Shown here: positions 16,884-33,898 of the stretch, piece after piece
Position numbering within the stretch: the stretch's first letter is position 1
How the letters are laid out: each line of letters begins with the position of its first letter
Origin: Tardiphaga robiniae
GTDB taxonomy: Bacteria; Pseudomonadota; Alphaproteobacteria; Rhizobiales; Xanthobacteraceae
Assembly: GCF_001618955.1 (NCBI RefSeq)
Contig: NZ_LVYV01000045.1
Span: forward strand, 62,001 to 126,000
Direction of reading: 5' to 3'
DNA length: 64,000 bases
Position numbers and translations under genes: made by a program
The notes under the pieces: generated by a model
Database searches by the model: none
Seen by the model: the letters and a program-made list of their open reading frames with translations, nothing else
Told to the model about the DNA's origin: nothing

Positions 16884-19109
16884 TTATTGGATTCTGACCA
16901 CAACTGTGTCTGCGGTGCCCATGGCGTCCATGACCGTCAGCCGGACGAAACCCGGACCAGGCGGATCGACCAGCCGCTGGCGCCGGCTGTCGAGTTCCCC
17001 GGCGGCCATGCCGTTGACCAGAACGGTCATGGGCAGCACCCCGCCGGCCACCTTGACCGGCACTGCCGAAAGCTGCCCCTCGCCGCCACTGGCATCGATC
17101 CGGGAACCGTTCAGCGGGAACTGGATGTGCAGGGCCTGATCGCTGCCTGTCCGGATCAACTCGCCGACCGGGCGGAACCGACGCAGCGGCAGCGGCAATT
17201 TTGCATTACTGGCCATCAGCACGCCCTTGGGCGCCTTCGGCAACGGAGCCGGCAGCTTGCCGGTCCGGGCAAAGGCATCGAACAGGATCGGAGCCGCGGC
17301 CGTGCGACCGACCAGGCCGGGCACCGGCGCGCCATCGGGCCGGCCGACCCAGACGCCGATGGTCATCCGTCCGTCGAAACCGACCGACCAAGCGTCGCGA
17401 TAGCCGTAGCTGGTGCCGGTCTTGAAGGCGATCCGGTTATGCGCGGCATTCTCCGGCGGCGGCGTGCCGATCAGGACATTGCCAACCTGCCAGGCTGCGA
17501 CCGGGTCCATCAGCCGCAACGACTCGCGATCGTCGCCGCCATTGGCCTGCATGATCTCCCGCAGCGGCTTCGAACTGCCGAGCCGCGCCACGCCCGTATA
17601 GAGCTGGACGAGGTCCTGCAGCGTAATGCCGACGCCGCCGAGACCCATGGCGAGACCGGGTGCCTCACCCGGCGGCAGCACCAGATTGCCGCCCGCCTGT
17701 TTGAGCCGTGACGACAACCGCGACGCGCCAACACGATCCAACAGCGCAATAGCCGGCACATTCAGTGAGAGCTGCAGCGCCTTGCGCACCGGCACGGTGC
17801 CCTGAAAGCTCATGTCGAAATTTTCGGGCGCGTAACTGCCGAAGCGCACCGGCCGATCCTCGATCAGGCTTTCCGGATGCACGAAGCCATCTTCAAAGGC
17901 GAGGCCGTAGATAAACGGCTTCAGCGTCGAACCGGGCGAGCGCACCGCGCGGGTCATGTCGACCTGCCCGGCGCGGCGATCGTCGAAATAATCGGGCGAT
18001 CCGACATGGGCGAGCACGTCGCCGCTCTCGTTATCGACAGCGATGAGGCCGATGGAGATATTGTTGCCCAGCGTCGCCGCGCGATCACGCGCGAGGCCTT
18101 CAAGCGCACGCTGGATACCCGCATCGAGCGCGAGCCTGATAATCGAGCGATCCTTGTGCAGTGATGTCGCCTGATCCGCCGAATGCGGCGCCAGGATCGG
18201 CATCGGCTTGCGCAGCTTTGGCACGCTGACGGATTTCGCCTGCATGGCATCGGCAGCCGACACCCTGCCCTCGCCGACCATACGTTCGAGCACGCGGTCG
18301 CGCGCCACGCGGGCATTGCCGGGATGGCGATCAAGCCGGCGGTGTTCCGGCGATTGCGGCAGCGCTACGAGCAATGCAGATTCCGCCAGCGACAGCCGTT
18401 TGGGCTCCTTGCCGAAATAGGCGATCGACGCGGCGCGAAGACCTTCGAGATTGCCGCCGAACGGCGCCAGCGCCAGATAGAGATCGAGGATCTGATCCTT
18501 GCTCATCTGCCGCTCGATCTGCAGCGCTCGGACGGCTTGTCTGATCTTCGCCGATATCGAGCGTTGCTGCCGCGGTTCGATCAGCCGTGCGAGTTGCATG
18601 GTGATGGTCGAGCCGCCCGACACGATCTCGCCCCGCGTCACGAGTTGAAGCGCGGCGCGGGCGAGCGCCAGCGGATCGACGCCATGATGGCTGTAGAAGC
18701 GCTTGTCTTCATAGCCCAGCAGTATGTTGAGATAGCCCGAGTCGACGGATGTCTTCGCGTCGACCGGCAACCGCCAGCGTCCATCGGTCATGGCATAGGC
18801 GCGCAGGAGTTTGCCGTTGCGGTCGATGACGGTGGTTGAGATCTTGCGGGCCTGTTCGAGCGGAAGCGGACCAAGGGAGGCCATCCATGCGGCGATGGTT
18901 GCACCACTCAGGACCACAAAAGCGGACACAGTAACGGCGACCTTCCGCAAGCAGGACCACCCCCTCCCATTCACGCTCCGCCCTCTCCCTACGTCATGGC
19001 TGGGTTGGACCCGGCCATCCACCTTTGCATCACCCGCGGCGTTCAAGATGGATCCCCGGGGCAAGCCCGGGGATGACGGAGTGTGTGGTGTGGAGGCCAC
19101 CTCGCTCAT
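16884..19109 (-). CDS. pbpC: Penicillin-binding protein 1C (bifunctional peptidoglycan synthase)
   Basis: Class A PBP of 741 residues. After a membrane helix at about 57-78 comes the GT51 transglycosylase (catalytic E134 in YEDKRFYSHHGVDP, and GGSTITMQLAR 165-175), then the transpeptidase with S394-xx-K397, SLN 448-450 and KTG 563-565, and a C-terminal BiPBP_C domain. It overlaps the upstream alpha-2-macroglobulin gene by four bases (ATGA), the standard pbpC-yfhM pairing. Oddity: residues about 12-39 are encoded by a palindromic repeat (18996-19074), so the N-terminus is recent and the ancestral start may lie downstream. Confidence 0.93.
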   Translation of the reverse strand: MSEVASTPHTPSSPGLPRGSILNAAGDAKVDGRVQPSHDVGRGRSVNGRGWSCLRKVAVTVSAFVVLSGATIAAWMASLGPLPLEQARKISTTVIDRNGKLLRAYAMTDGRWRLPVDAKTSVDSGYLNILLGYEDKRFYSHHGVDPLALARAALQLVTRGEIVSGGSTITMQLARLIEPRQQRSISAKIRQAVRALQIERQMSKDQILDLYLALAPFGGNLEGLRAASIAYFGKEPKRLSLAESALLVALPQSPEHRRLDRHPGNARVARDRVLERMVGEGRVSAADAMQAKSVSVPKLRKPMPILAPHSADQATSLHKDRSIIRLALDAGIQRALEGLARDRAATLGNNISIGLIAVDNESGDVLAHVGSPDYFDDRRAGQVDMTRAVRSPGSTLKPFIYGLAFEDGFVHPESLIEDRPVRFGSYAPENFDMSFQGTVPVRKALQLSLNVPAIALLDRVGASRLSSRLKQAGGNLVLPPGEAPGLAMGLGGVGITLQDLVQLYTGVARLGSSKPLREIMQANGGDDRESLRLMDPVAAWQVGNVLIGTPPPENAAHNRIAFKTGTSYGYRDAWSVGFDGRMTIGVWVGRPDGAPVPGLVGRTAAAPILFDAFARTGKLPAPLPKAPKGVLMASNAKLPLPLRRFRPVGELIRTGSDQALHIQFPLNGSRIDASGGEGQLSAVPVKVAGGVLPMTVLVNGMAAGELDSRRQRLVDPPGPGFVRLTVMDAMGTADTVVVRIQ
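18996..19074. repeat. Composite palindromic (REP-like) element inside the 5' end of pbpC
   Basis: Two palindromes about 35 bases apart: ATGGCTGGGT (18996-19005) with ACCCGGCCAT (19009-19018), one G-T mismatch; and ATCCCCGGG (19052-19060) with CCCGGGGAT (19066-19074), perfect. Elements of this wording are common between genes in Bradyrhizobiaceae. Here it is read in frame as part of pbpC. Confidence 0.75.
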
Positions 19110-22100
19110 TTCGCTTTCGCGACCTCGATCGAGCCCGTACCCGTCCGTCCGTAGCGCGACGGATTATACATGTCCTCCACATAGGCCTGCGGCAGCACGT
19201 ATTTCCCGGGCGACACCGCGCGAACAATATAGGCGACCGTGAACACCGCCTTGTCGTCGCTCTTCCGGTCGATCGCCGCCGTGAAGCGGTCATCGCGGAA
19301 TTCGGTGTTCTCGGGTTCTTCGCCATCCTCGATCCAGTCCAGCGTGCCGCTGTCACCCGACGACACCAAATGCGGATTGTCGATCTCGAAACCAGCCGGG
19401 AGATAGTCGGCCACCATGATGTGCCCGTATTCCGGCTTGGCCTCGGTGATCTTCAGCACCACGGCAAAGCGATCGTTCTGCTTAGCCTTGGTGACGTCTG
19501 CGGGCTTGCCGTCGAGCGTGAAGTAATTGCGCTCGATCTTGAAGCCGTTGGATGCCGCCGGCTCCGGCGTGATCGGCGAACCGGACACCGAGACGACCGC
19601 CTGCACCGGCGTATCGCCAGTGTTGGTGATCTTGATCGGCTGCCCGGACATCTCCGCTGCCTTGTAGCTCCGATAGAGCGCGGTCTTCACCGGCGAACCG
19701 TTGACGTCCAGCGCCAGCGTATTCGCTTCCCTGGCCAGCGCACGCGACGCCAGCACCAGCCACGCATTCTCCTGCGTGGAGGTGAACGGCGTCAGGCCGC
19801 GCGCGGCCTCGACGCGCTGGACGGCCTGCGTCAGCGTTGCCCGCGGCGCATTGCCTTCACTGGCAAGCGAGACCAGTGCCGCAGCATCGCGCAACGCCGA
19901 GCCGTAATCGACGCGGCCGAACTCGATGATCGGCTTTGGCGCGAGGCTCTCAACTGCTGCCGCATAGACACGCTCGGCACGGGCCCGGTCACCGACCAGC
20001 ACCAGTGCCGCCGCCAGCTGCGACTTGGCAATCGGCGTTGCCAGGTTCTTCAGCTTGGTATCGGCGAGATAGCGCAGATCGCCGATCGGCGCGGTACCGT
20101 TCTTGGCCAGCACATAGAGGCCGTAAGCGAGATCGCGGCCGCCGTCTTTTTCCGGCTCGTCAGCATTGACGACCGAATTGCGTACGCGGTCCAGCGCTGC
20201 ACGGAACAGCACGTCCGGCACCACGAACCCCTTCTCGCGCGCGCGGGTCAGGAAGTCCGTGACATAAGCGTCCAGCCAGGCGTCGTCGCCGCCCGCCGAC
20301 CACAGGCCGAACGAACCGTTCGAGCCCTGACGCGCCAGTAGTCTGTCGATGGAGTCCTTGATGCGCTGATCGACACCGGTATCCATCGCCAGATGCGCGC
20401 CGGCCGCGAGATCGTTCACATAGAGGAGCGGCATCGCGCGGCTGGTGATCTGCTCGGAGCAGCCATAGGGATAGCGATCCAGTGCCTTCAGGATCGTTGC
20501 GGCATCCAGTGCGGTCGACAGGCTGACCGACAGCGAGACGCCGCCGGTGCCCGCCACGAGATCGGAGAACATGTCCGATGTCAGCGTCAGGCTCTCGCCC
20601 TTCGCCAGCGTGCGGATCGAGCGCCGCGCCAGAACCTGGGTGGCGGCCTTGACGTCGAGCACATAGTGCCGCGCCAGCGTCAGGCCATTCGGTCCCTTGA
20701 TATCGACATCGAACTGCGCCGTGCCGGCACCGGATGCATCGATGGCCAGCGCCATCGAGGTCCGTTGCTTGGCGGCGAGCTTGATCGTCGTAGCCGGATT
20801 TCCGGTCACCTTGACGGGCCCCGAAGTCTTCACTGCGATGGTGTAGTCACCGGCCATGCCTTCGACATTGTCGAGGTCGAAGCTCATGGTGCCCTTGTCG
20901 CCGGACAACAGGAACCGCGGCAGCGTCGCCGTCAGCACCACGGGATCGCGCACCGTGACGTCCACCGTGGCGCGGCCGAGCTTGGTCGCGGTCCAGGCCA
21001 CGGCCATCACGCGGGCGGTGCCGGCGAATTCGGGGATCTCGAATTCGATCTGCGCCGTGCCGTCGGCGGCCACGGTGACGATGCCGGAATACAGCGCCAT
21101 CGGCTTCTGCGTGGGCGGCGAGCCCTCGATCTGCGCGCCGGCGCTATCGCCGCCAGTGCGTAGCTGACCGCGGGTGCCCTGCATGCCGTCGATCAACTGC
21201 CCATAGATGTCGCGAATTTCCGACGTCATGCGGCGCTGGCCGAGATAATAGTCATCGGGCGCCGGTGGCTTGTAATTGGTCAGGTTGAGAATACCGACAT
21301 CGACCGCGGCAACGACGATCTTGGCGTCCTCACCGGGATTGAGCCCGCCGAGTTTCACCGGCAGCTTCAGCGTCGTGCTGGGCCGGATCAGCGCCGGCGG
21401 CGACAGTGCCACGTCGAGCGTGCGCGCCTTCTTGTCGATGCCGAACCACTTCAAACCGATGGCACGGCCCGGCATCCGCTTGGCGGCGGCATCGAGAGGC
21501 CGGCGCAGCGTCGCCACGATATATGCGCCCGTGCCCCAGTCCTTGCCGACCGGGATCTTGATCTGCGACTGCCCTTCCTTGACGGCGGTGTTCTGAGTCG
21601 TCAGCAGGCGGTCGCCGAGCACATTGATGGTCAAGCGGCCGGCGGTGCGGGCATTGACCGACACGGTCATGGTGTCGCCCGACAGATATTCCGGCTTGTC
21701 GATGGAGGTCTCCAGCAGGTCCGGCGTGTCGGCACTGCCGTCGGAATACCAGCCGACATCGAACTGCACCGAGGTGATCGGACCATCGGCTTCATTCGAT
21801 TTCACGTCGAGACGATAACGGCCGGGCTGCGGCTGCAGCGAGATGCGCGCGGGCGCATTGGCGGCGATGGTGAGATCGCCATCGGCCACGCGTTTGGTCG
21901 ACTTGACCGGCTCGTAATCCCAGGACGAATTCTGCCGGTACCACTGGTAGCGGGATTCCATCTTGAGCAATTCGTAACGAAGCCCGCTGCGCGCCAGCGA
22001 GGTTCCCTCCGGCGACACGACCACCACGTCGAAGGCGGCGTTATCGCCCTCGGCAACGTTCTTGTCCTTGAACAGTGGCTTGACGCCGATCATCGGCGCA

Positions 22101-24325
22101 GTAGGCGCAACCGGCAGCACGAACTTGCGCTCGACGGCGCGACCGCCGGCTTCGGTCATACGGATGAAGATCTGCGCTTCCTGCGGCCGGGTCGAGGACG
22201 GCGGCTTGGCAAGGCTGACCGGGAACGTGGCGACGCCATTAGCGTCAGCTTCGGGCAGCCCCTCGATCGGCGTGCGTTCGTTGCTGGCGCTTTCCTCGTC
22301 GGCCACGCCGAACTGGTAGCCGGCGAATCCTGGGCGGTTCGCGGCAGGGCTGACAAGCAGATCGCCTTCGAGCTGCAGGCCCGACGCGGGCGCGCCATAG
22401 AGGAAGCGACCATCCACCTTAAGTTCTACAGGAGCATTAGCTTTAATCAGCTTGTCTTTGGAAGATATGTCGAATTCAATCCGATCCGGGACGTAATCCT
22501 CGACCATGAAGGTGGTCTCGCCGATCGACGGCGCCTTCGGATCAGTAAAGGCGCGGACACGCCAGGTGCCGGTTGGGACCGCAGAGTTCAGCGGCAGCGT
22601 CAGGCTGCGACCGCCTGCGCCCTGGTCCTGCAGGACAGCGCGGCGGAACTCGACGCCATCCGGACGCTCGACGACGAGGGTCATTGGGCCCGAGGTGACG
22701 GCATTGCCCTGTCCGTCACGCAACAGCGCGGTGAGATAGACCGTCTCGCCGGAACGATAGACGCCGCGCTCGGCATAGACGAAGGCATCGGCACCGGCAG
22801 GAACCGCACGGCCCGAGACGCCACGATCCGAAAGGTCGAAGGCATTCGATTTCAGACTGAGGAATGCATAGTCGTTCTTGTCACTGGTGACCGTCAGCAA
22901 TGCAGGCGACAGACCGCCCTCGCCCTTGGCGAGCCCCGCCTCGAACAGCACATGGCCGGAGTCGTCGGTCTTCCTGGTCGCGAGAATCTCGTTGTTGCGC
23001 GCCACGAGGCGGACGTTGGCCTTGGCCAGCGGATCGGTCGAAGCGAGCGAATTGACGAAGACGTGGATGCCGTCATTGCCCGAGAAGGCGGTCAGGCCGA
23101 GGTCCGAGACAATGAACCACTGGGTCGCCAGCGAGCCATCGTCGTCACCGCTGCCGGACCCCGGCCCCTTGGCCGCGGCGGTCATCACATAGACGCCTGG
23201 CTGCAGCTCGCCGATGGCCTGATCGACAGGGAATGCAGTGGTGACGTCGGCATTCAGCGTCGACGCCGTGGCCAGCTCGCCGGTCCAGACCTTCATGCCG
23301 CGCTCGTCGCCGAGGCTTTCGAGCTGGTATTTGCTCAGCGCCGTCTGGAAGTCGCTGCCGATGACGGTATTGATCAGGTTGCGGTCGCCGATCCGGAACA
23401 CATTGACGGTGACCGCCTGGGTATTGACCGAGACCACGGGGATGCCCTGCTGGCCTGTGCGCGGCAGCACATAGGCGCGGCCGGTGAAGCGCACGAACGG
23501 CTTGCGGTCGCGCACATAGATGTTGAACTCGGCCGATTTCGGCAGACTCTCCTTCACCGTCGACGGCAGGCCGGCGCGCAGGTTGATATTGTAGCGCTCG
23601 CCATGCTTGAGGCCTTCGACGCAGAGCTGCTTGTCCTCGGAGGTCAGTGCCGGCTTGTCGCTGCCGGCCAGCGCCAGGAACGGCGCGAAATCCACTCGCT
23701 TGGCGAGTTCTTCGGAAAACTGGAAACAGGCTCGCGGCGAGGCGGAATCCGAGTCCACTGTGTAATCGAGCAAACGGAAGCCGTGATCGTCGCGGAGCTT
23801 CTCGTATTGACCGCGCACGTCGGCGACCTCGCGCATCTCGAGCGACAGGCGCAGCGCGTCCAGCGCCGGGCGCCACAGCTTGCGTTCTTCCATGGCCCGG
23901 CCAAGCACGGCCAGCGCCTCGGCCTCCTCGCCGGCATTGCCAGCGCGCTGATAGGCGATATAGGCGGCTGTCGCGGCGCGCTCGCGCAGGAACGTCGTTT
24001 CCGAGGAGGTTGCCGGGCGGATCTGGAAGATCGTCTTGGCAAGCCGCAGCCAGTTGGCGCTGTCATCGGGCGCAATCGCCACGATCTGGCCCAGCGTCTG
24101 CAGACCGGCGCGGAAATCGGAGCGTTTGAAGGCCGCGTCCGCGTCGGTGCGCAGCGTTGCCGCGCTCTTGGCGACAGGCCCCGCCTCGCTCTTGATCTGC
24201 GCCTCGAGCTTGATCGCTGAATCCGCCAGCTCATCCCGTCGGAAAGCCTTGTCGGCCGCGTGAGCCGAGACGAGGCCGAACGCCAGCGTGGCGCAGACAG
24301 TGACGGCGCGAACCAGACCAATCAT
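19106..24325 (-). CDS. Bacterial alpha-2-macroglobulin with thioester motif (YfhM type)
   Basis: Large periplasmic protein of 1,739 residues; E. coli YfhM is about 1,650. A Sec signal peptide ends at AHA before ADKAFRRDEL, with no lipobox, unlike the lipoprotein of E. coli. MG1-type beta domains precede the bait region and the thioester motif GCSEQ, with the reactive Cys at about residue 1289, then the alpha-toroid (WLDAYVTDFLTRAREKGF). Such proteins trap attacking proteases and are thought to guard peptidoglycan repair by PBP1C, encoded next. Start at the ATG 24325, preceded by GGGGAG; a TTG two codons earlier is less likely. Confidence 0.94.
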   Translation of the reverse strand: MIGLVRAVTVCATLAFGLVSAHAADKAFRRDELADSAIKLEAQIKSEAGPVAKSAATLRTDADAAFKRSDFRAGLQTLGQIVAIAPDDSANWLRLAKTIFQIRPATSSETTFLRERAATAAYIAYQRAGNAGEEAEALAVLGRAMEERKLWRPALDALRLSLEMREVADVRGQYEKLRDDHGFRLLDYTVDSDSASPRACFQFSEELAKRVDFAPFLALAGSDKPALTSEDKQLCVEGLKHGERYNINLRAGLPSTVKESLPKSAEFNIYVRDRKPFVRFTGRAYVLPRTGQQGIPVVSVNTQAVTVNVFRIGDRNLINTVIGSDFQTALSKYQLESLGDERGMKVWTGELATASTLNADVTTAFPVDQAIGELQPGVYVMTAAAKGPGSGSGDDDGSLATQWFIVSDLGLTAFSGNDGIHVFVNSLASTDPLAKANVRLVARNNEILATRKTDDSGHVLFEAGLAKGEGGLSPALLTVTSDKNDYAFLSLKSNAFDLSDRGVSGRAVPAGADAFVYAERGVYRSGETVYLTALLRDGQGNAVTSGPMTLVVERPDGVEFRRAVLQDQGAGGRSLTLPLNSAVPTGTWRVRAFTDPKAPSIGETTFMVEDYVPDRIEFDISSKDKLIKANAPVELKVDGRFLYGAPASGLQLEGDLLVSPAANRPGFAGYQFGVADEESASNERTPIEGLPEADANGVATFPVSLAKPPSSTRPQEAQIFIRMTEAGGRAVERKFVLPVAPTAPMIGVKPLFKDKNVAEGDNAAFDVVVVSPEGTSLARSGLRYELLKMESRYQWYRQNSSWDYEPVKSTKRVADGDLTIAANAPARISLQPQPGRYRLDVKSNEADGPITSVQFDVGWYSDGSADTPDLLETSIDKPEYLSGDTMTVSVNARTAGRLTINVLGDRLLTTQNTAVKEGQSQIKIPVGKDWGTGAYIVATLRRPLDAAAKRMPGRAIGLKWFGIDKKARTLDVALSPPALIRPSTTLKLPVKLGGLNPGEDAKIVVAAVDVGILNLTNYKPPAPDDYYLGQRRMTSEIRDIYGQLIDGMQGTRGQLRTGGDSAGAQIEGSPPTQKPMALYSGIVTVAADGTAQIEFEIPEFAGTARVMAVAWTATKLGRATVDVTVRDPVVLTATLPRFLLSGDKGTMSFDLDNVEGMAGDYTIAVKTSGPVKVTGNPATTIKLAAKQRTSMALAIDASGAGTAQFDVDIKGPNGLTLARHYVLDVKAATQVLARRSIRTLAKGESLTLTSDMFSDLVAGTGGVSLSVSLSTALDAATILKALDRYPYGCSEQITSRAMPLLYVNDLAAGAHLAMDTGVDQRIKDSIDRLLARQGSNGSFGLWSAGGDDAWLDAYVTDFLTRAREKGFVVPDVLFRAALDRVRNSVVNADEPEKDGGRDLAYGLYVLAKNGTAPIGDLRYLADTKLKNLATPIAKSQLAAALVLVGDRARAERVYAAAVESLAPKPIIEFGRVDYGSALRDAAALVSLASEGNAPRATLTQAVQRVEAARGLTPFTSTQENAWLVLASRALAREANTLALDVNGSPVKTALYRSYKAAEMSGQPIKITNTGDTPVQAVVSVSGSPITPEPAASNGFKIERNYFTLDGKPADVTKAKQNDRFAVVLKITEAKPEYGHIMVADYLPAGFEIDNPHLVSSGDSGTLDWIEDGEEPENTEFRDDRFTAAIDRKSDDKAVFTVAYIVRAVSPGKYVLPQAYVEDMYNPSRYGRTGTGSIEVAKAK

Positions 24326-24832
24326 GGACAACTCCCCTGCACGGACGAATGCCGCGCGGATTCAAATGTGCGTAAGAACGGTGACGGACTCATGGCCAGC
24401 TTGTTCGCGAGTCTCTCGACCGGCGCAACGCGAGACACGACAATTGCTGGCAACATCATGTGACGAACCCGGGTAACTCAAATCGCAGCCCCACGCGCAA
24501 GCCGCGGGCATCATGGCGGCGGGCCCCGCCGAAAGCAAAGCCACCTCACCGCCGATTGGTCGCGCCTGTGTGGGAATCGGTTCGAGCACGCGCTGACGAT
24601 TTTGATGACAGATTTTCGGCCATCTGCGGGCGTGCAACCGGCCCCGTCCCACTCGTCATCGCCCCGCGCGTTTTAATCAAACGCGACACGTTAAGACTAA
24701 AAACAGCCTGCTGGGGACGACCGGAGATCACGGGTACCCAAGTCCTCCTGCTGCGGTCAGATGGGTGCGCCTTGCGGCACGGATGATCACGGCGATCACC
24801 CGACCGCTCGGCCCTTCTGGGCGCATCGCATC
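24326..24832. other. Divergent intergenic region
   Basis: About 500 bases between the alpha-2-macroglobulin gene and a small plus-strand gene. Open frames exist but show no family features or ribosome-binding sites. No promoter called. Confidence 0.4.
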
Positions 24833-25186
24833 ATGATCGAACTTCTTTTGGCGACAAGTTCACTGGCGGGCCTTGCCGTCGGACTCGTCGGCCCCGTCTG
24901 GGTCATTGTCGTGACGACCGTGCTGGTCGCTGTCCTGTCCGCCACCATCACGTGGAGCCAGGGATTTTCGGCGCTGGGCGGCGTTGCGGTCACGACGGGA
25001 TGTCTGATCGCGTGCCAGATCTCCTATATGGCCGGCCGTTTCGTGACCAGGCAATACGGCTTCCCGGAGCAGCTATTTGAGGATGACGTCGACGGCGAGC
25101 CAGGCGAGACCGGCCAGCGCGGCATCTCCAGTGACAATGGCAAGGACGGCAAACCACCATCGCGGCCCCCGCCGTCGGAGCCTTAA
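24833..25186 (+). CDS. Small membrane protein of unknown function
   Basis: 117 residues. Two or three hydrophobic helices occupy residues 1-70 (LLLATSSLAGLAVGLVGPVW, VVTTVLVAVLSATITW, GVAVTTGCLIACQISYMAG), followed by a charged, Pro/Gly-rich cytoplasmic tail ending PPSRPPPSEP. The pattern resembles short membrane proteins common next to other genes in Bradyrhizobium, but I do not recognise a family. Start chosen at the ATG 24833, where the hydrophobic part begins. Confidence 0.6.
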   Translation: MIELLLATSSLAGLAVGLVGPVWVIVVTTVLVAVLSATITWSQGFSALGGVAVTTGCLIACQISYMAGRFVTRQYGFPEQLFEDDVDGEPGETGQRGISSDNGKDGKPPSRPPPSEP

Positions 25187-25447
25187 GGGCCGCCAGTCTG
25201 CCGACGCCGAATCTGCGAGACGATCCCTGAACGGGACAGGAATCGGAGCGACGTCAAAGGCACAGACGGACGTTCGGTTTTGGGACGAAAAGCGGATCAA
25301 GTCGGCACACTTTCTGGCTGAAATCGCGGGTTCACCGCTCAATCAGCAAGAGAAAGGCCAGACTGGGGGCGCTGGCACGCAGCAGCACGGACAGCATGCA
25401 AAGCGAATGCGATACGGCGCCAAATATTTGATTTTGTGAGAAAATAC

Positions 25448-25524
25448 TGGCGATCCCAGCAGGATTCGAACCTGCAACCCACGGAGTAGAAATCCGTTAC
25501 TCTATCCAGTTGAGCTATGGGACC
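25448..25524 (-). tRNA. tRNA-Arg (anticodon TCT)
   Basis: Full cloverleaf of 77 bases including an encoded CCA. Acceptor GGTCCCA pairs with TGGGATC; the anticodon arm is ACGGA-TTTCTAC-TCCGT, giving TCT (reads AGA); the T-loop is GTTCGAATC. A second, partial copy of its 3' half lies inverted at 26826-26867. Confidence 0.96.
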
Positions 25525-26105
25525 GGCGCGTCGTCATACCATCGTCGGTATGGCTTGGACAGACCGGGCAAAATGGCGGGATTCGCGGGATGCTTTCAAG
25601 GCCTCTGATCGGCGTCCGCGTCTGGCTTGATCTGCGGTGACTCGTTTTCTCTAAGTCAAATTACAGCTGTCCCGTTTGGTCCCGACGAGTGCGCGCAAGA
25701 CGGACGCAACACGATATTCCAGAACCATTCTCTCGAAACGACGATAGTCGAGACCGCCTCAGGCATGCTGCGTAAGCAATGAGTTTGGATCGCACGTGGC
25801 ATCGCGACGAACCTGCGGCCGTCGGCAACACGGTGCGACAGTACAAGTTGCTCGATGCTTTCTTCTGCAAGCACCGCGAAGACATCGGGATGATCTTGGC
25901 GCACCTCGCGTTTGAGACGACGGCAAATGTCCGATACCTCTCAAGCATTCACCAAGTCGCTTGTGTAGTCCTGCGTCGATCACAACCATCACCGTCGGCT
26001 GCACGTTAGTAAATGGCGTCCTAGTGCAGCGCTTCGCCGGGAATGCTGAAGCGAGACCCACTTACCGGGATTAGCCAAGAACGCGTGGCGACGCTGACGA
26101 TGTCG
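25525..26105. other. Gene-poor stretch next to tRNA-Arg, possible decayed coding sequence
   Basis: About 580 bases with less GC bias than neighbouring genes. On the minus strand, 25660-26000, stretches such as REVRQDHPDVFAVLAEESIE and VIDAGLHKRLGECL read like protein but sit in different frames with stops between, which suggests a frame-shifted remnant. No family recognised. Confidence 0.3.
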
Positions 26106-26450
26106 TTAAACGCGACGGAAAGCGATAGCGCGCGAAACTGATCGAGGACGAGTTCTTATCGCGCCGCCATCATTGCCACTGTGTACTATCCATTCGCCGT
26201 TGGAAGCTTGCCCCGTTATGATCCCGACATGATGTGGCCAGACCACAACTACTCCAATGCCCGGGCCTCCGGCGCTCGAACCAACGCGCGCCCATTCGCG
26301 AGCACGAGCAAGACGTCGATCGGATTGGTGAAGGTATTTGCTGAGATATGTCCCACACCACGCGTGCGCTCGGTGATGACTTCCCTTGCGGGCTTCAGCC
26401 TGTGATGCAAAGCAGATAATCGCACAAGCAAGCAATGCGCTTTTCGACAT
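26106..26450 (-). CDS. Secreted CHAP/NlpC-like small protein
   Basis: 114 residues. Signal peptide of about 20 residues ends QAEA, then a short CHAP-like core: WCG with Cys at 32 and PHHVGIITG with His at about 73-74, the Cys-His pair used by cell-wall amidases and endopeptidases. Proteins of this form (signal, His-rich patch, WCG, HHVG, SGNDG near the end) are frequent in Bradyrhizobium and have no proven function. GGAG lies seven bases before the ATG at 26450. A GGAAC-N16-AGTT sequence on the minus strand starts at 26524. Confidence 0.7.
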   Translation of the reverse strand: MSKSALLACAIICFASQAEARKGSHHRAHAWCGTYLSKYLHQSDRRLARAREWARVGSSAGGPGIGVVVVWPHHVGIITGQASNGEWIVHSGNDGGAIRTRPRSVSRAIAFRRV

Positions 26451-26895
26451 AGCGTTACTCCGTATGAATGAAATGACCAACTTTCAAAAGCGGTCTTCAA
26501 ACTTACGGTGTGTCCTTCAGTTCCTTGTTTTCCTTTCTGAACGATCTAAATCGCGCGAGAACAAGGACGAGCGGTAACTGGACACATTGTAGTATCGAAG
26601 AGGATTGCGCATCCAACGTTGAAGCGGTGCTACGCTAAGGCAACGCCGCCGCAAGAGCAGCGAAGGTCATGTTGTTTCTCCGGGGGGACGACGTTATGTC
26701 GGGTTGTGCGCTTATTAGAACTCGCGCCGATCTTCGAAAGACATCGACCAACTGCTCGCCGCGCAGTACGTCGATAGTACACGGTCACCGCATCTCCACG
26801 ATTTCGCTGGTCATATAGCGGGCTACTACTCCGTGGATTGCAGCTTCGAATCCTGCTGGGATCGCCATCATGTCCAATGAAATGGCGTCGTGGCA
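26451..26895. other. Gene-poor stretch holding a tRNA-Arg 3' fragment
   Basis: About 445 bases without a supported gene. The only recognised item is the partial tRNA copy at 26826-26867, 29 bases before the end of the cytochrome gene. Confidence 0.5.
26826..26867 (+). repeat. Partial, inverted copy of the tRNA-Arg 3' half
   Basis: 42 bases matching the tRNA-Arg(TCT) from the anticodon loop through CCA with two mismatches (GTGGATTGCAGCTTCG against GTGGGTTGCAGGTTCG). It is on the plus strand whereas the intact tRNA is on the minus strand. Resembles an attachment-site remnant left by a tRNA-targeting integrase. Confidence 0.75.
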
Positions 26896-27510
26896 TCACC
26901 CCGGACACGCCGCGCCTGTCTTCGCCCACGCTTCCACGAGAGCGCCCGCCTCGGCCTGCGTGCCAGGCGCAGGCGCACGTCCGTAACCCGGCGCCCAGGC
27001 CCAGCCAACCAGAGTGTCCTTGCTGATGTGGTCGATCAGATCCTCGACCTTGCGGCCGCCATTACGCGCGGGGTCTTTGATCTGCACGCAGATCTCGGCA
27101 ACAGTCTTGCCTTCCCATGCCATCTCGCGCGGCGCGAGGTGCCATTCGTGATGACCGGGGATGCGGCCCGGCTCGAAATTGGCATCCTTGTGACAGGAGT
27201 TGCAGCGCATCGCCGCGGTGCCGTGACCATCGGCTCCGCGAGCGACCGGCGGTTGATGCAGGCGCTGCGCATCGCCCTGCCGCGGCATGTCGCCGGCGGG
27301 ATGGCAGTTCACGCAGCGCGGATGCGTCAGCACCTTGCCGAGTTCGGTGAAGATCGCCGCGGAGCGCGCATTGGTATCGGCGATGCCATTGAAACTCTCC
27401 GGACTAGCCAACCCTTTTGACGCGCCCTGCCCGGCCGCATAGGCCGTGAGCATGCTCATCCCCAGCGTCGCGACGACAACCAGAGTCTTGACGCGTGTCT
27501 CGGCTCTCAT
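26896..27510 (-). CDS. Diheme c-type cytochrome of a molybdo-hydroxylase operon
   Basis: 204 residues with a Sec signal peptide and two heme-binding motifs, CVNCH (66-70) and CNSCH (103-107). Resembles the small proteins annotated as an isoquinoline 1-oxidoreductase subunit. It is the last gene of the operon and overlaps the 2Fe-2S gene by four bases (ATGA), so it probably accepts electrons from the 2Fe-2S clusters in the periplasm and passes them to the respiratory chain. Confidence 0.88.
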
Positions 27511-28037
27511 CCGCGCGGCTCCTGCATGAGATAGCGCTTCGCGTCGCTGAGGATCACGTCGAGCACGGCCTCATGATATTTGAAGTAGCCGGTGCAGCGA
27601 CACAGATGCCCGTCGAGCGCCTCGGCGATCCTCTCTTCAAGGCCCGCGCGCGGCACAGGTGTCTTGGCCAGCTGCTCGAGCAGCACCTGCCCTTCATTGA
27701 GAAAACCGGCGGTACAGTAACCGCACTGGAACGCGAAATGCCTGATGAAGGCCTTCTGCAACGGCGACAGCTCGCCGTTCTTTGCGTGGCCCTCGACCGT
27801 GCGAATGGTCTTGCCGTGGAAGCTTGCCGCCGAGGTCACACAGGTCGGATTGGTGTGGCAGGTGCCGTCGGGCTCGTCGACGATCACGACACAGCTCAGG
27901 CACTGCGCGGCGCCGCAGCCGAACTTGGTGCCGGTCATGCCCAGATATTCACGCAGGAAGTCGTTCATGGAGAGATCGTCGCGCACCTCGGTGGGCGCAT
28001 GGACCTGTCCGTTAATGGTGATGCCCAGTGTCGTCAC
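27507..28037 (-). CDS. 2Fe-2S subunit of a periplasmic xanthine dehydrogenase-family enzyme
   Basis: 176 residues from a GTG start that overlaps the stop of the Mo subunit (GTGA, 28034-28037). The N-terminal plant-type ferredoxin domain has C41, C46 and C49 (CGAAQCLSC) with the fourth ligand at C60 or C66; the helical second domain has CGYC (105-108) and CRC (146-148). It matches the small subunit of isoquinoline 1-oxidoreductase-like enzymes, which pass electrons from molybdopterin to a cytochrome. There is no FAD subunit in the operon. It has no signal of its own and would be carried across the membrane with the Tat-signalled Mo subunit. Confidence 0.92.
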   Translation of the reverse strand: MTTLGITINGQVHAPTEVRDDLSMNDFLREYLGMTGTKFGCGAAQCLSCVVIVDEPDGTCHTNPTCVTSAASFHGKTIRTVEGHAKNGELSPLQKAFIRHFAFQCGYCTAGFLNEGQVLLEQLAKTPVPRAGLEERIAEALDGHLCRCTGYFKYHEAVLDVILSDAKRYLMQEPRG

Positions 28038-30808
28038 GCGAGCGCTCCCTTGAGCATGGCCTGTGTCACCGGCAACGCCGCGAAGCGGTGTCCGATGGCG
28101 TCCTGGATGGCGTTGAGCAATGCCGGCACGATGGGGATCATCACCACCTCGGCCATGCCCTTCGGTAATTCGTCCGGCGTCAGCGGCGGCATCAGCTCGA
28201 TCTCGACATCGCGCAGCGACAGGTCGGATCCGCGCGCCACCAGATACTGACCGAGATTCCATTGCCCGTTGCCGGGGCCGCCCTCGAACGGCGGCAGCGT
28301 TTCCAGCAGCGCGTAGCCGACGCCCATGGCGAAGCCGCCTTGGGCCTGGCCGAGGACAACCTCCGGCACCAGCGCCTGCCCGCATTCGAATGCGGTATAG
28401 GCTTTGGCGATGCGCAGCACGCCGGTCGCTTTCTCGATCTCGACACGCACCGTTGCGCCGCATGCCGCTGTATAGGCCGTGCCCATCCGGTTGTTATCGG
28501 TTGGCGGGAACAACACGCTGGCGCGGTTGATGCGCGTGAATTTGCCGGCGCCACGACGCAGCGCGAGCCCGTCGATCTCGGCGCGATACTGCTCGCCATT
28601 AATGGGGAAACGTGCGCGTGCCCACGCCCAGCGCGAGAACCCGTGCGCCACGGCGCCGGTGACCAGATTGCGTGCATGGGCCGCGGCGGCAAGTTTGTCC
28701 AGCGGCAGCGACGGCAGGCCCGCCATCGTGAGCTGTCCGTCCTTCCACTGCGCCTTGGCAAAGTCCTTGGCGCGTGGATCGCGCGGGCCGATATTCCATA
28801 GCGCCAGCGCCGCCGGCCACAGACCGAAGCGGAAGATCACCCGCGCGGCTTCCGCCGCGGCATGGGTACCGACATGGGCGCCGATGGAGGCTGACGTGGC
28901 CGAACTGATCGACGGCACCCAGCGCGGATCCTTCTCGGCCTTGTCCTGGGTCTTCTGGTCCATGGTGTAGCAATCGCCGGAGGTCACCAGCTCCATCGCA
29001 TCGAACACGCCGACCTGCGACACCGCCACCTCGTCAGCAATGCTGCCGAGATGCAATGCGACGCGATTGGCCAGCGCCGTGCCAATGCCGTTGCCCATCT
29101 CGACATGGTCGCAGAAGATCGCGATCCTGCCGTCGGGGCTGAGTTCAACGCGACCGTTCGAACTATCGCCGCCGGTGCCGTAGTCCTTGGTCACACAGGC
29201 GACGCCGGTGCCGACCAATATGCCACTGGCCGCGCGCGCCTTCTCTGCAGCTCGTTGCTGCCAGATCGGGTGCTGCTCGAGCTTGTCGAGAACCTCTAAG
29301 CTCCGCACCGAGACGATATAGGGATTGCCGGTCATGGTGCGGCCATCCTGCTTCAGGGCATTGCGTCGCCGGAAGTCGATGGGATCTAGCTTGAGCGCAA
29401 GCGCCGCCTCGTCGATCAGAACTTCCAGCGCAGTCATGGTCTGCAGCGAGCCGTAGCCGCGCATCGAGCCCGCGGTCACGCCGCGGGTATGCTCTGCCAC
29501 AGTCGTCACATCGACCTTCGGCACGTCATAGATACCAATCGCGGCCGTTGCGGCGCAGGTGGCGACATTGGCCGAGAAATTGGCGAGACCACCGCCATCG
29601 AGCACGTGATCGGCGGCGAAGGCCGTGATCTTGCCAGAGGCGCGATCGACAGACATGCGCGAGCGCATCTTGATGGCGTGGCGTTTGATGCCAGCCTGAA
29701 ATTGCTGATACCGATCGTGCGCCAGCCGCACCGGACGGTCCGGGAAGAATATCGCCGCCAGCGTCACATAGAAAATGAATGGCGTATGGTCGCGGCCGCC
29801 GAAACCGCCCCCCACATAGGCGAATTGCGCGTTGATCGCACTCGGCTTGAACGGCGCCTTGGTTTCGCCAAGCAGAAACGCGATTGATTCCGCCGCTTCA
29901 TAGGGCGACTGCACGCCCAGCACCAGTTCGAGCGCCTTGTCTTTTGCGTTGTACCAGCCCAGCCCGCATTCCGGCTCCATAAACATCGGATCGACAGACT
30001 GCGTATCGAAGGTGCGGTCCAGTACCAGAGCCGAAGACTCGCTGGCGGCGATCTCGGCGCGGATTTTGTCGCCGTGCACGGCAGCCTTCTCGTAACCGGC
30101 CTCGTTCTTGTGCGCGGTCGAGGACCATACCGGCAGCGCGGACGCCTGGGTACGGCCGGGCGTGACCCAGCCGGCAAGGACCGGCGAGTAGACATCGGGC
30201 GCATCGGGCGTGGCGCCGGCAACGCGGGTGAAACGATACGCCGCATAATTCGGCATTACGATCGGGCCGGTCTCCTCGCCAAACTGCACGAAGGTGCCGT
30301 CGCGCAAGGCGATCCGCGCGCGGTCATAGGTGTCGAACTGCTCAAAGATCAGCAGCGCAACGGGCTGGCCCATATAGAGCGGCGTCTTGCCGACGGGACA
30401 GAACAGATCGCCTTCATAATAGGCGGGAACGCGGATGTTGATCCTGGCGAGATCCGCCGCGGTGACGATCACCGTAGGCTTCAGCGCTCCGCTCAGCCGC
30501 GCGAGGTCCATGCCAAGATAGACATGGGTGGCATCGGGCGCGCGCACCAAAATCGCATGCGAGGTCTTGGCCGGCCAGCCCGGCAGATCATTCGCCCGGA
30601 AATCCGACGCATAGAGTTTCGAGCCGGTGACCTTGGCGACGCCATCGACACGGCCGGCGCCGCCGATAGCGGGGTTCAACTTGCCCCGCCCCGGCAGTGT
30701 CTCGCGTGCCGGGAACGCCACCGGCTCCGCCGCAGCTAGATGCGACAGGCTGAGCGAAATACCGCCCGCCGATACCCATTTCATGAACTCGCGACGCGAA
30801 GTCCGCAT
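28034..30808 (-). CDS. Molybdopterin-binding subunit, xanthine dehydrogenase/isoquinoline 1-oxidoreductase family
   Basis: Catalytic subunit of 924 residues. The Tat signal SRREFMKWVSAGG at the N-terminus predicts folded export. Aldehyde-oxidase a/b hammerhead and Mo-cofactor domains follow (YVGGGFGGRDHTPF, GSMRGYGSLQTMTALEVLID, CDHVEMGNGIGTALANRVAL), and FECGQALVPEVVLGQAQGGF near the end is the usual C-terminal Mo-binding text. Predicted to hydroxylate an N-heterocycle or oxidise an aldehyde in the periplasm; the substrate is unknown. It sits 40 bases after the gene for a periplasmic protein of unknown function. Confidence 0.93.
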   Translation of the reverse strand: MRTSRREFMKWVSAGGISLSLSHLAAAEPVAFPARETLPGRGKLNPAIGGAGRVDGVAKVTGSKLYASDFRANDLPGWPAKTSHAILVRAPDATHVYLGMDLARLSGALKPTVIVTAADLARINIRVPAYYEGDLFCPVGKTPLYMGQPVALLIFEQFDTYDRARIALRDGTFVQFGEETGPIVMPNYAAYRFTRVAGATPDAPDVYSPVLAGWVTPGRTQASALPVWSSTAHKNEAGYEKAAVHGDKIRAEIAASESSALVLDRTFDTQSVDPMFMEPECGLGWYNAKDKALELVLGVQSPYEAAESIAFLLGETKAPFKPSAINAQFAYVGGGFGGRDHTPFIFYVTLAAIFFPDRPVRLAHDRYQQFQAGIKRHAIKMRSRMSVDRASGKITAFAADHVLDGGGLANFSANVATCAATAAIGIYDVPKVDVTTVAEHTRGVTAGSMRGYGSLQTMTALEVLIDEAALALKLDPIDFRRRNALKQDGRTMTGNPYIVSVRSLEVLDKLEQHPIWQQRAAEKARAASGILVGTGVACVTKDYGTGGDSSNGRVELSPDGRIAIFCDHVEMGNGIGTALANRVALHLGSIADEVAVSQVGVFDAMELVTSGDCYTMDQKTQDKAEKDPRWVPSISSATSASIGAHVGTHAAAEAARVIFRFGLWPAALALWNIGPRDPRAKDFAKAQWKDGQLTMAGLPSLPLDKLAAAAHARNLVTGAVAHGFSRWAWARARFPINGEQYRAEIDGLALRRGAGKFTRINRASVLFPPTDNNRMGTAYTAACGATVRVEIEKATGVLRIAKAYTAFECGQALVPEVVLGQAQGGFAMGVGYALLETLPPFEGGPGNGQWNLGQYLVARGSDLSLRDVEIELMPPLTPDELPKGMAEVVMIPIVPALLNAIQDAIGHRFAALPVTQAMLKGALA

Positions 30809-30848
30809 GCTTCCACCCCTGATCGACAGCCGTCCGCCGCTGCGCCGA

Positions 30849-31937
30849 TTACTTGAGATCGGCGATGGTGGCCGGCCCCGGTCCAGTGGTGATCAGTGTC
30901 GGCCACTGGTTCGAGCCGAACGGCACCACCGGCGGCAGGAACGGCGTCATGCCGCGCTTGGCGCTCTCGGCGACGATGGCAGCGCGGGCGTCGCCCCCCA
31001 TCAATTCGTAATCCATCAGATGATAGTTGCCGAAGAACAGCGAGCCCACCGAGCGATCGGCGATGATGCGGGTCAGCGACTCCAGCATATCGGCTTGCGT
31101 GGTGGTGAACGACACGGTCTCGATCAGCAGCAGGCGATCGTTGATGGCCTCCGGCGGGAAGAACTGCGCCAGCACGCTGAACAGCACGTTGTTCTGCCGT
31201 GCCACATAAATCGTGTTGCTCGCGGCATAGGCCTTGTCCCAATCGGGACCCAGCATCTTCTTCCAGTCGCCCAGTACGGTCATCCAGTGATTGACCTGGG
31301 TCTGCGCGGCCCAAGTCACGTTCTTCGCAAGGAACGGCGCCTGCTTCTTGCCAAATGTCTCCAGCGTATCGAAGGGGATAACGCCCTTGGCGATGCACTC
31401 GTCCATGAAAGCCAGGTTGTTCTGCAGGATGGTGCGGTTGTTGTCGCGCCAGTCGGCCTGCATGGGCGTGAGATCGAGGCCATCCAGCGCCGACTGCATG
31501 CGGCTGCGATAGGCTTTCATCGAACCGAGCCAGGATTTGTTGTCGGGATTGTTCACATAGGGGCCGACAACTTCGGCCAGTGCCATGGTGCTGTGGCCGA
31601 CCGACTTGAGCAGCTGATAGACTATCGGCACCGAGGGCGCGTCGAGCGGCGGTTTGCCGGGCTGGTACAGCGTGAATTTGCCGCCGGCGCCGGAAAACAG
31701 GCCGAGGATCACGGGATGTTTGGCGAGGATATTGGCGCGGAAGACTTTGGCTGCGTCGCCGTAGAGCTCGAACATGCCGGTGTTGAGCGCGAGCATGTCC
31801 TTGGTGGCGGTCTCGGCAGGCGTTGTCGCGGTCAATCCCGAAATCGGCGCCATGTAGGACGGCAAGGTCTGGGCATGGACGGCGCCGACGCCCCCCAACA
31901 GGACAGCTGCAAGAGCGACAGCGTGGCGATACGTCAT
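30849..31937 (-). CDS. Periplasmic protein of unknown function, first gene of the molybdo-hydroxylase operon
   Basis: 362 residues; a signal peptide of about 22 residues ends VHA before QTLPSYMAPI. Mature protein is largely helical and well-behaved, with text such as DTLETFGKKQAPFLAKNVTW and FFPPEAINDRLLLIETV. I do not recognise a family. The ATG at 31937 follows a strong GGAGGA. Its place ahead of three enzyme subunits suggests a binding, delivery or assembly role, which is inference only. Confidence 0.85.
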   Translation of the reverse strand: MTYRHAVALAAVLLGGVGAVHAQTLPSYMAPISGLTATTPAETATKDMLALNTGMFELYGDAAKVFRANILAKHPVILGLFSGAGGKFTLYQPGKPPLDAPSVPIVYQLLKSVGHSTMALAEVVGPYVNNPDNKSWLGSMKAYRSRMQSALDGLDLTPMQADWRDNNRTILQNNLAFMDECIAKGVIPFDTLETFGKKQAPFLAKNVTWAAQTQVNHWMTVLGDWKKMLGPDWDKAYAASNTIYVARQNNVLFSVLAQFFPPEAINDRLLLIETVSFTTTQADMLESLTRIIADRSVGSLFFGNYHLMDYELMGGDARAAIVAESAKRGMTPFLPPVVPFGSNQWPTLITTGPGPATIADLK

Positions 31938-32319
31938 ATCCGGACTCCTCCGAGTCATGTTGGCGACTGCTACTGTCACGACTAACGCAGCACATCTTAA
32001 AAATCTGCCTTTCCATTCAGCAGAAATGGTCGCGACATAGTTGATGAAAGCAAACACGCCGTGACGGGCGGAATGCTCTCGAATGCGACTGAACTGGATA
32101 AGAAAAATGCTACGAATCACGCAAAGCGCTGGTGGCTCAAAGTTACACGCAATTTCGTGACACAGGAATTGGTTCGCGATCCGGAATACGCAGTGCGTAG
32201 CCACTTTCGTTCGCCTGTAGTGGAGGCTGGACGCTCGAAAGAGGCGGGGTTACTTTCACGACACGTAGGTAAGCACCACCAATACGGCTGTATGGCACCG
32301 GGCGTCGGAGGGGGAGCGC
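31938..32319. other. Divergent intergenic region
   Basis: About 380 bases between the molybdo-hydroxylase operon and the DUF1801 gene. No gene, repeat or confident promoter seen. Confidence 0.4.
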
Positions 32320-32748
32320 ATGGCCAAAAAGACGTCCATCAAATCGACGAGGATTGACGAGGCAGGTTCTCCCTCTCAGCTCATCGACGCGAAGATCACG
32401 GAGCTGGGTGACTGGCGCGGCGAGATGCTCGCTCGCGTCCGAGGGATCATCAAGCAGGCTGTCCCCGACGTGGTCGAGGAATGGAAGTGGCGCGGCGTTC
32501 CGGTCTGGGAACACGCGGGCATCATTTGCACCGGCGAAACCTACAAGGCGGTCGTGAAGATGACCTTTGCGAAGGGCGCATCGCTCGATGACCCGTCAGG
32601 CCTGTTCAACTCCAGCCTCGACGGCAACACCCGGCGGGCCATCGATATTCACGAAGGCGATAAGGTCGATGAAAAGGCGCTGAAGGCGCTCATCCGCGCT
32701 GCGCTGGCGCTGAACACCTCGACAAAGAAGAAGCCAAAGAAAGCGTGA
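32320..32748 (+). CDS. DUF1801 domain protein (YdhG-like)
   Basis: 142 residues, cytoplasmic. PDVVEEWKWRGVPVWEHAG and ETYKAVVKMTFAKGA match the DUF1801/YdhG fold, which is of unknown function. Lys-rich ends (MAKKTSIKS and TKKKPKKA). The ribosome-binding site GGAGGGGGAG precedes the ATG. Confidence 0.85.
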   Translation: MAKKTSIKSTRIDEAGSPSQLIDAKITELGDWRGEMLARVRGIIKQAVPDVVEEWKWRGVPVWEHAGIICTGETYKAVVKMTFAKGASLDDPSGLFNSSLDGNTRRAIDIHEGDKVDEKALKALIRAALALNTSTKKKPKKA

Positions 32749-32754
32749 GCGTCG

Positions 32755-32898
32755 TTATTTAGCAACCGGCCACGACAGATCGTAGGACATCACATAGATG
32801 ACGATCGCTGCCAGGCACAGAACCACGCCAATCCAGAACAGCGGTGAATGATGGATGGGGCGGCGTCGTCTCTCTGTTGGTGCTTCATTCCGTCCCCC
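32755..32898 (-). CDS. Small single-helix membrane protein, start uncertain or frame-shifted
   Basis: The minus strand reads RRRRPIHHSPLFWIGVVLCL, then AAIVIYVMSYDLSW and a stop: a basic N-terminus followed by one membrane helix, like small membrane proteins of related bacteria. No usable start codon lies in this frame near the expected N-terminus; an ATG after GGGGGACGGA (about 32887) is in a different frame. Either the gene uses a distant start or it has lost its start by a frameshift. Coordinates of the 5' end are approximate. Confidence 0.4.
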   Translation of the reverse strand, partial: GGRNEAPTERRRRPIHHSPLFWIGVVLCLAAIVIYVMSYDLSWPVAK

Positions 32899-33007
32899 AT
32901 TTTTCGGCGCAAGCGCCCTGACCGTCCGAATTGTCGCGCGACGTTCTGACACACAGATCGGACTCGCTGAAGCACGCATGGTCGCACCATTCGCAGGAAA
33001 GGTACGC

Positions 33008-33898
33008 ATGCACGGCGCGAGTCGACGTAACGATGATGGCTTGTCCGCGCTACTCCAGCCTGCGCGGTCGACCGCTGTCGTCGATATCGGCGCCAACCCC
33101 ATCGATGGTGACCCGCCCTATAAGCCGATGCTGCAAAGCGGACTTTGCCGCGTTACCGGTTTCGATCCGCATCCGCAGGCATTGGCGCAACTGCAGGCAT
33201 GCAAGGGCGCGTTTGAGACCTATCTTCCTTATGCCGTCGGCGATGGCGGCAGCCATACGCTGAACATCTGCCGTGGCATTGGCTTTGCCAGCCTGCTGCA
33301 GCCTGAGCCGAAAACACTCACGCACTTTCCGAATTTTACCGAGCTCGGACGTGTCGTCGACAGGCTCCCGCTCGATACACGGCGGCTCGACGATATCGCC
33401 GAGATCGAGCACATCGATCTCTTGAAGATCGACATTCAGGGCGGCGAACTGTCGGTGTTCAGGAACGGTCGCAGCAAACTGGCAAAGGCCGTCGCCATTC
33501 AGACCGAAGTCTCCTTCGTGCCGCTCTATGAGAAGCAGCCGGTGTTCGGCGACATCGATCTCGAACTGCGCAGCCTCGGCTTCATTCCGCACATGTTCGT
33601 GGCCATCAACAAGAAGATGATCGCGCCCATGATGGGGCCGAATCCTGCTGCTGCCTTCAATCAACTCGTCGAGGCCGACGTCGTCTATGTCCGGGATTTC
33701 ATCCAGGCCGAGGCGATGGATAGCGAGCAGCTCAAGCACCTCGCACTGATCGCGCATCATTGCTACGCCTCGTTCGATCTGGCGCTGAATTGCGTGCATC
33801 ATCTGGCCAGCCGCGGTGCCGTCGCGCCCGATGCCAAGAACCGCTATGTCGCCCTGCTCCAGGCCAATCGCCCCAAAGTAGCTGGCGGCAGACTTTAA
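33008..33898 (+). CDS. FkbM-family SAM-dependent methyltransferase
   Basis: 296 residues. VVDIGANPIDGDPPY near residues 24-38 is the SAM-binding motif I of FkbM enzymes, VTGFDPHPQALAQL the acidic loop, and LLKIDIQGGELSVFRNG the conserved FkbM core. Such enzymes usually O-methylate sugars of polysaccharides or glycolipids. Start chosen at the ATG 33008, six bases after AGGAAAGG; ATG 32978 is possible. No polysaccharide gene adjoins, so the substrate is unknown. Confidence 0.88.
   Translation: MHGASRRNDDGLSALLQPARSTAVVDIGANPIDGDPPYKPMLQSGLCRVTGFDPHPQALAQLQACKGAFETYLPYAVGDGGSHTLNICRGIGFASLLQPEPKTLTHFPNFTELGRVVDRLPLDTRRLDDIAEIEHIDLLKIDIQGGELSVFRNGRSKLAKAVAIQTEVSFVPLYEKQPVFGDIDLELRSLGFIPHMFVAINKKMIAPMMGPNPAAAFNQLVEADVVYVRDFIQAEAMDSEQLKHLALIAHHCYASFDLALNCVHHLASRGAVAPDAKNRYVALLQANRPKVAGGRL

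Follow-up and report, generated by a model that had tools for sequence, protein, structure and literature searches.

A tRNA-Arg(TCT) gene apparently inverted in place beside the decayed scar of an integrated island in Tardiphaga robiniae

The window, a stretch of 64,000 nucleotides from Tardiphaga robiniae (genome G000), carries an intact tRNA-Arg(TCT) gene that points to a bacterial alpha-2-macroglobulin (A2M) gene and, beyond a short segment, a fragment of the 3′ part of the same tRNA in the opposite orientation (Table 1). The two copies form an inverted repeat (25448-25499 and 26816-26867) of 52 nt, 88% complementary, with a spacing of 1316 nt. The best-matching part of the fragment, 26826-26867, agrees with tRNA positions 36-77 at 40 of 42 bases (95%; E 2.0e-12 in a search of the 6.36-Mb genome of 56 contigs), and in tRNA and fragment alike the match goes no further than CCA. 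An earlier reading of the letters alone (the sequence-only reading) had reported an inverted partial copy of 42 nt with two mismatches that stops at CCA, and all of this is borne out. It also advised a search for a direct-oriented copy, and none was found in the 6.36-Mb genome at E ≤ 0.001; the four matches to tRNA-Arg(TCT) at this threshold are the gene itself, the fragment, and the tRNA-Arg CCT and ACG genes.

Table 1. Features at the tRNA-Arg(TCT) locus of the window
Feature	Coordinates	Strand	Basis or remark
A2M gene, fixed neighbour and orientation reference	19106..24331	-	Pfam
141-aa ORF between A2M and tRNA, without family match	24761..25186	+	
Putative flipped block, made up of the tRNA with 76 bp of flank upstream and 86 bp on its 3′ side	25362..25600	.	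reverse alignment to G016
tRNA-Arg(TCT), intact, pointing to the A2M gene	25448..25524	-	ARAGORN and orientation survey
Distal part of element end, unflipped	25666..25741	+	alignment to G016
Island-interior remnant, colinear with G016	25878..26664	+	95.4% to L034 11326-12113
124-aa gene with weak TIGR02594 similarity; ORF of the same length in G016	26106..26480	-	
tRNA-Arg(TCT) 3′ fragment, tRNA positions 26-77; far-end scar of island	26816..26867	+	inverted-repeat and BLAST evidence
Flanking gene with two CXXCH motifs (by eye)	26896..27510	-	adjoins the scar in G000, G004, G016 and G001

The segment between the tRNA and the fragment is gene-poor, as had been described, and within it only the 124-aa gene looks maintained. 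Identity to the relative G004, taken per 100 bases, is 94-98% over 26106-26480 and 76-85%, with gaps, over 25700-26100; against a second relative, G016, 25878-26664 stands at 95% throughout. The gene product scores 41.4 bits against TIGR02594, whose cut-off is 70.55, and is thus not assigned to that family. The frame-shifted remnant suspected at 25525-26105 is not supported: three ORFs there are without a Pfam match, one of them also without an NCBIfam match, and tblastx against the fetched loci returned only G016, G004 and scattered weak matches in L120 (E 8.6e-4). A search for an integrase near the locus, likewise suggested, found none in the segment, and none of the 11 PF00589 matches of G000 lies on the window's contig, C45. 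Candidate integrase pieces in window 24301-27000 reached at best E 0.036 over 10 residues and were not credible.

Outside the segment, the 141-aa ORF at 24761-25186 is matched at the nucleotide level in 6 of the 18 Tardiphaga genomes, and the flanking gene at 26896-27510 has no match in Pfam or NCBIfam. Window 26896-32750, in which a CXXCH protein and 2Fe-2S/xanthine-dehydrogenase-like ORFs were recognized by eye, occurs among the fetched stretches only in those of G004, G016, G009 and G001, and is possibly an older island. Sequence matching the window from 32754 on sits about 0.4 kb from the tRNA in G011. A second scar sought at the far edge of this 26.9-32.7 kb module (31901-33300) was rejected, the best score on either strand being 8, whereas shuffles averaged 8.9 and reached at most 15.

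Orientation relative to A2M was surveyed in the best 80 of 364 confirmed loci in named genomes with an A2M neighbour, and in 17 further entries, namely the window and 16 stretches from Tardiphaga and Rhodopseudomonas. Nine of the resulting 97 entries are the same locus under two ids, which leaves 88 distinct loci; G003, the eighteenth genus genome, stands outside the count because its contig begins near the tRNA. Every one of the 97 entries has one full copy of tRNA-Arg(TCT). In this survey, with its best 80 of 364, the tRNA is directed away from A2M at 81 of the 88 distinct loci, and we therefore take the flipped state to be derived. It is directed to A2M at seven: those of G000 (the window), G004, G005, G007, G011, G014 and G017. 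The flipped tRNA is thus found at 7 of 17 Tardiphaga loci versus none of the 71 others surveyed. Since the assemblies of G005, G011 and G017 are single contigs, an assembly artefact is not a likely cause.

Comparison with G016 points to what was turned. Its gene order matches that of the window (A2M gene, 141-aa ORF, tRNA, island remnant, fragment and flanking gene), and its tRNA and fragment are direct repeats, with the fragment 1.56 kb past the CCA end. Such a direct tRNA and 3′ fragment layout is the textbook arrangement of an island. The window is colinear with G016 over 24301-25361 (94%) and 25878-27600 (90%); only 25375-25585 aligns reversed, or 25375-25600 with looser scoring, the latter to G016 10734-10506 at 84% and with colinear flanks on either side. 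The left junction at 25361/25362 is sharp, both sequences reading ...AGAAAGGCCAG to 25361 and then diverging, and the right edge lies somewhere in 25600-25665, with 25601-25877 poorly alignable to G016. Because only a block of about 240 bp is reversed while the outer flanks and the fragment are colinear, it is by this comparison the tRNA that appears to have been flipped, and the scar that appears to have stayed in place. The sequence-only reading, which had called for just this comparison of synteny, proposed that one end had been inverted after integration; one end does appear to have been turned after integration, but the fragment end and segment are colinear with G016 and it is the intact tRNA that was turned.

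G004 has the inverted arrangement of the window, G001 has an 18-nt piece of the fragment in the same place, and G009 has the same flanks, although no fragment was detected there. The fragments of G000, G004 and G016 all have TAGCGGGCT in place of the TAACGGATT of the tRNA, which argues that the scar goes back to one old event. The T loop of tRNA-Arg(TCT) has an extra base (eight instead of seven) in G016 (L034:10582-10659) and G005 (L041:9951-10028), at different positions in the two, and ARAGORN calls both tRNAs nonetheless; the T loop of the G016 fragment likewise has eight bases. The extra base may stem from an error in sequencing or may be genuine, altering the attachment core.

At E ≤ 0.05 a fragment was found at 14 distinct loci of the survey (best 80 of 364 included), lying direct on the 3′ side of the tRNA at 11, direct on the 5′ side at one (L084) and inverted at two (the window and G004). 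With E < 1e-4, seven direct and two inverted fragments are retained. The fragments begin somewhere in tRNA positions 23-61 and run to positions 73-77. Among the loci surveyed only G004 shares the inverted form of the window, and at 11 others, including those of G016 and G001, the 3′ fragment is direct. The earlier interpretation of the fragment as a 3′ tRNA scar of the tyrosine-recombinase island type is supported. At L084 (Bradyrhizobium sp. LY.8), a weak fragment oriented 8342-8372 (31 nt, E 0.007) occupies the usual place of the tRNA, and the intact tRNA is at 10424-10500, 2.1 kb farther from A2M, as if replaced downstream. In the draft genome G002, the A2M contig (L062) stops exactly at the tRNA CCA, and a second contig (L048) opens with this same leader and tRNA; a repeat or mixed arrangements may lie behind the break.

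Remains of integrases lie near the tRNA in relatives. G001 has a broken tyrosine-integrase C-terminus, with an internal TAG, about 80 bp from the CCA end; its 57-aa piece matches PF00589 at E 8.6e-4, below the cut-off, whereas no match was obtained for the 35-aa piece. Pieces resembling this relic occur 77-123 nt from the tRNA end in L079, L096, L123 and L132 (E 1.2e-4 or better), and in L092 the tRNA and fragment enclose an integrase C-terminal ORF of 161 aa that is unbroken (PF00589, E 9.6e-15). Moreover, G016 positions 34-137 past CCA reappear past tRNA-Arg(TCG) in G009 (105 nt, 86%), and one element family appears to use both tRNA-Arg genes, TCT and TCG. The G009 element end is located at L140:1422-1560 on contig C76. 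BLAST finds shorter parts of the G016 element end past tRNA-Arg(TCT) in L067, L082, L084 and G007, and the 17-nt core of that end is present in G011 too, equally far from the tRNA and with two mismatches; as the 17-nt motif with up to four mismatches also matches unrelated places, BLAST and the two-mismatch match of G011 were relied on. We read the repeated sequence past CCA as the probable end of one element family. Given the direct fragments, the integrase relics near the CCA end and the element end at tRNA-Arg(TCG), the locus can be regarded as an island hotspot.

In the window, the element end is cut in two. The tRNA-proximal part is turned with the block and the distal part, from 25666 on, is not: 25666-25702 is 81% identical to G016 10760-10796 and 78% to G016 11251-11287, and 25680-25741 is 76% identical to G016 11255-11315. 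The flip should therefore be later than an insertion. G016 itself has two direct copies of the element-end core (L034:10745-10800 and 11236-11291; 56 nt, 89%), which suggest tandem or successive insertions. With these ends 491 bp apart in G016, two elements may have met, an event that is possible and that the explanation does not need.

We consider it highly probable that the locus as a whole is explained by an island scar followed by inversion of the tRNA block in place. A tyrosine-recombinase island would have integrated at the 3′ end of tRNA-Arg(TCT), with a direct 3′ fragment, as is usual, at the island's far end (26816-26867); through decay it would have shrunk to about 1 kb, with a single small gene left. 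At a later time the tRNA would have been inverted within a block of about 240 bp, together with its upstream flank and the tRNA-proximal part of the element end, after which the tRNA would read to the A2M gene and the unmoved scar would appear inverted. The scar was presumably made by an integrase. For the inversion, we infer an illegitimate event in repair or replication instead of a switch, since the block ends are without an inverted repeat: random pairs equal what is there in 92% (G016), 14% (G000) and 28% (G004) of draws. A candidate end repeat, GAGAAAGGCCAG / CAGGCTTTCCC, looked promising by eye and was no better than random pairs. A crossover of the fragment with the 3′ half of the tRNA was rejected as well, as it would turn the whole segment, but 25878-26867 is colinear with G016. 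With the upstream flank having moved along with the gene, the flip was probably tolerated and the tRNA is putatively still expressed. That flips were seen in Tardiphaga only could plausibly be due to breaks caused by islands coming and going there repeatedly.

How many times has the tRNA been turned? Sequence comparison indicates at least three structurally different rearrangements of tRNA-Arg(TCT) in Tardiphaga, whose members are soil bacteria. The small block alone is turned in G000 and G004. In G014 and G017 the tRNA is reversed while the island stretch that lies 3′ of the tRNA in G002 retains its direction; a 270-bp piece from the A2M side of G002 is reversed there too, which one simple inversion does not account for. 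In G011 and G007 a 157-167 nt piece (78-79%) found 3′ of the tRNA in G002 sits reversed on the A2M side, and a larger stretch seems to have been turned. The right-hand junction of G005 is that of G011 and G007, so that these three may represent one event.

A 24-row tree from 8 kb of sequence at A2M and past it unites neither G000 with G004 nor all flipped genomes, and the AU test rejects the grouping of the five basal flipped genomes (p 0.002) and that of G000 with G004 (p 1e-28). Orientation changes on this tree number at least five, which is not a firm count because it comes from one region of recombining bacteria, with deviant base composition in G005 and G017 and a weak root. One flip for all flipped genomes was discarded, as structure does not support it and the AU test rejects it where the five basal genomes are concerned. 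For G000 and G004, one origin followed by transfer is favoured, because the 95 nt upstream of the tRNA fall into two classes that pair them (94.7% identity in G000/G004; 91.5-92.6% among G016, G009 and G001; 80-85% between classes), and the flanks of G000 are nearer to those of G016 (95.0% left, 95.6% right) than to those of G004 (91.4%, 91.6%). As the tree separates G000 from G004, a single flip for both needs transfer between lineages, and the flipped allele would have been moved by recombination. Two kinds of upstream sequence (window 25525-25570 and relatives) are scattered on the tree in Tardiphaga, as if swapped.

A more elaborate possibility is that tRNA-Arg(TCT) of Tardiphaga is a recurrently inverting module, in which islands or their integrases turn the target, successive islands insert on alternate sides and flipped alleles spread between species by recombination; we regard this as unlikely. 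An active DNA switch, with a recombinase (the islands' integrase or another) repeatedly inverting the tRNA block and both orientations coexisting in populations, is improbable to a degree that leaves it little weight. Such a switch could account for three or more different rearrangements in one genus and none in 71 loci outside, for five orientation changes on the 8-kb tree and for the break of the draft genome G002 at the tRNA end, and it has a precedent in the pTN3 integrase, which inverts DNA in Thermococcus (PMC5495485). However, the block ends have no inverted repeat above random pairs, as a switch would need, the breakpoints differ between lineages and the window's contig has no PF00589 match; according to the available part of the pTN3 report, moreover, that enzyme acts on shared segments of about 100 bp, and the present locus has none.

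It is very improbable that the tRNA kept its original orientation and that the island was inverted at its fragment end, or that two elements came together head-on. Although the tandem element ends of G016 could be taken to favour such a history, colinearity with G016, whose fragment is direct, takes in the fragment, the island remnant at 25878-26664 and the flanking gene; what differs is the tRNA block, and the tRNA has the opposite orientation at 81 of 88 distinct loci. That the fragment is a remnant of a separate second tRNA gene and no integration scar is scarcely credible despite its substitutions relative to the tRNA, as it covers positions 26-77 only, ends at CCA like the direct fragments of relatives and bounds a variable segment, and none of 97 entries has two full copies. 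We therefore retain an island scar with a turned tRNA block, and conclude that the window locus is a real, decayed and rearranged island scar.

Scars of tRNA islands are well known already, also in Bradyrhizobium. The islands of that genus, which belongs to the same bacterial family (e.g., USDA6), have duplicated tRNA portions at ten loci, several of them tandem (PMC3927601); the available portion of this report mentions neither tRNA-Arg(TCT) nor inversion of a tRNA. Among the literature matches listed, none describes a bacterial island whose tRNA target has been turned. The pTN3 element of Thermococcus nautili resembles our locus in that inversions are tied to integrases and tRNA genes. As far as the accessible text describes, crossover occurs there within shared segments down to 104 bp (PMC5495485), whereas the breakpoints of the window flip lie outside the tRNA and share no common repeat. 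Flipped and unflipped genomes of one genus with a fixed neighbour gene offer a natural series for studying what causes repeated rearrangement of an island target.

The closest likeness is to the islands of Islander (PMC4383910), a database in which, by the part of its description available, 3′ fragments are far commoner than the other kind: an intact tRNA, a displaced 3′ fragment reaching the gene end and, in relatives, integrase relics. As Islander asks, the intact tRNA and a fragment reaching the gene end are on the same replicon in the window. The pair has the expected orientation in G016, but in both the window and G004 it is inverted and has the fragment 5′ of the tRNA; an integrase is found neither in the window segment nor on contig C45, a relic being present in the G001 island at the same tRNA; and the 1316 nt between the arms fall short of the 2-200 kb length range. 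Each of the filters described (integrase, length, configuration and orientation) would thus reject the window locus. Islander discards opposite-orientation pairs of tRNA and fragment and uses them to gauge false positives (PMC4383910, in the part available). As the present locus is one such pair and yet a real scar with a turned target gene, scars of this kind can be missed.
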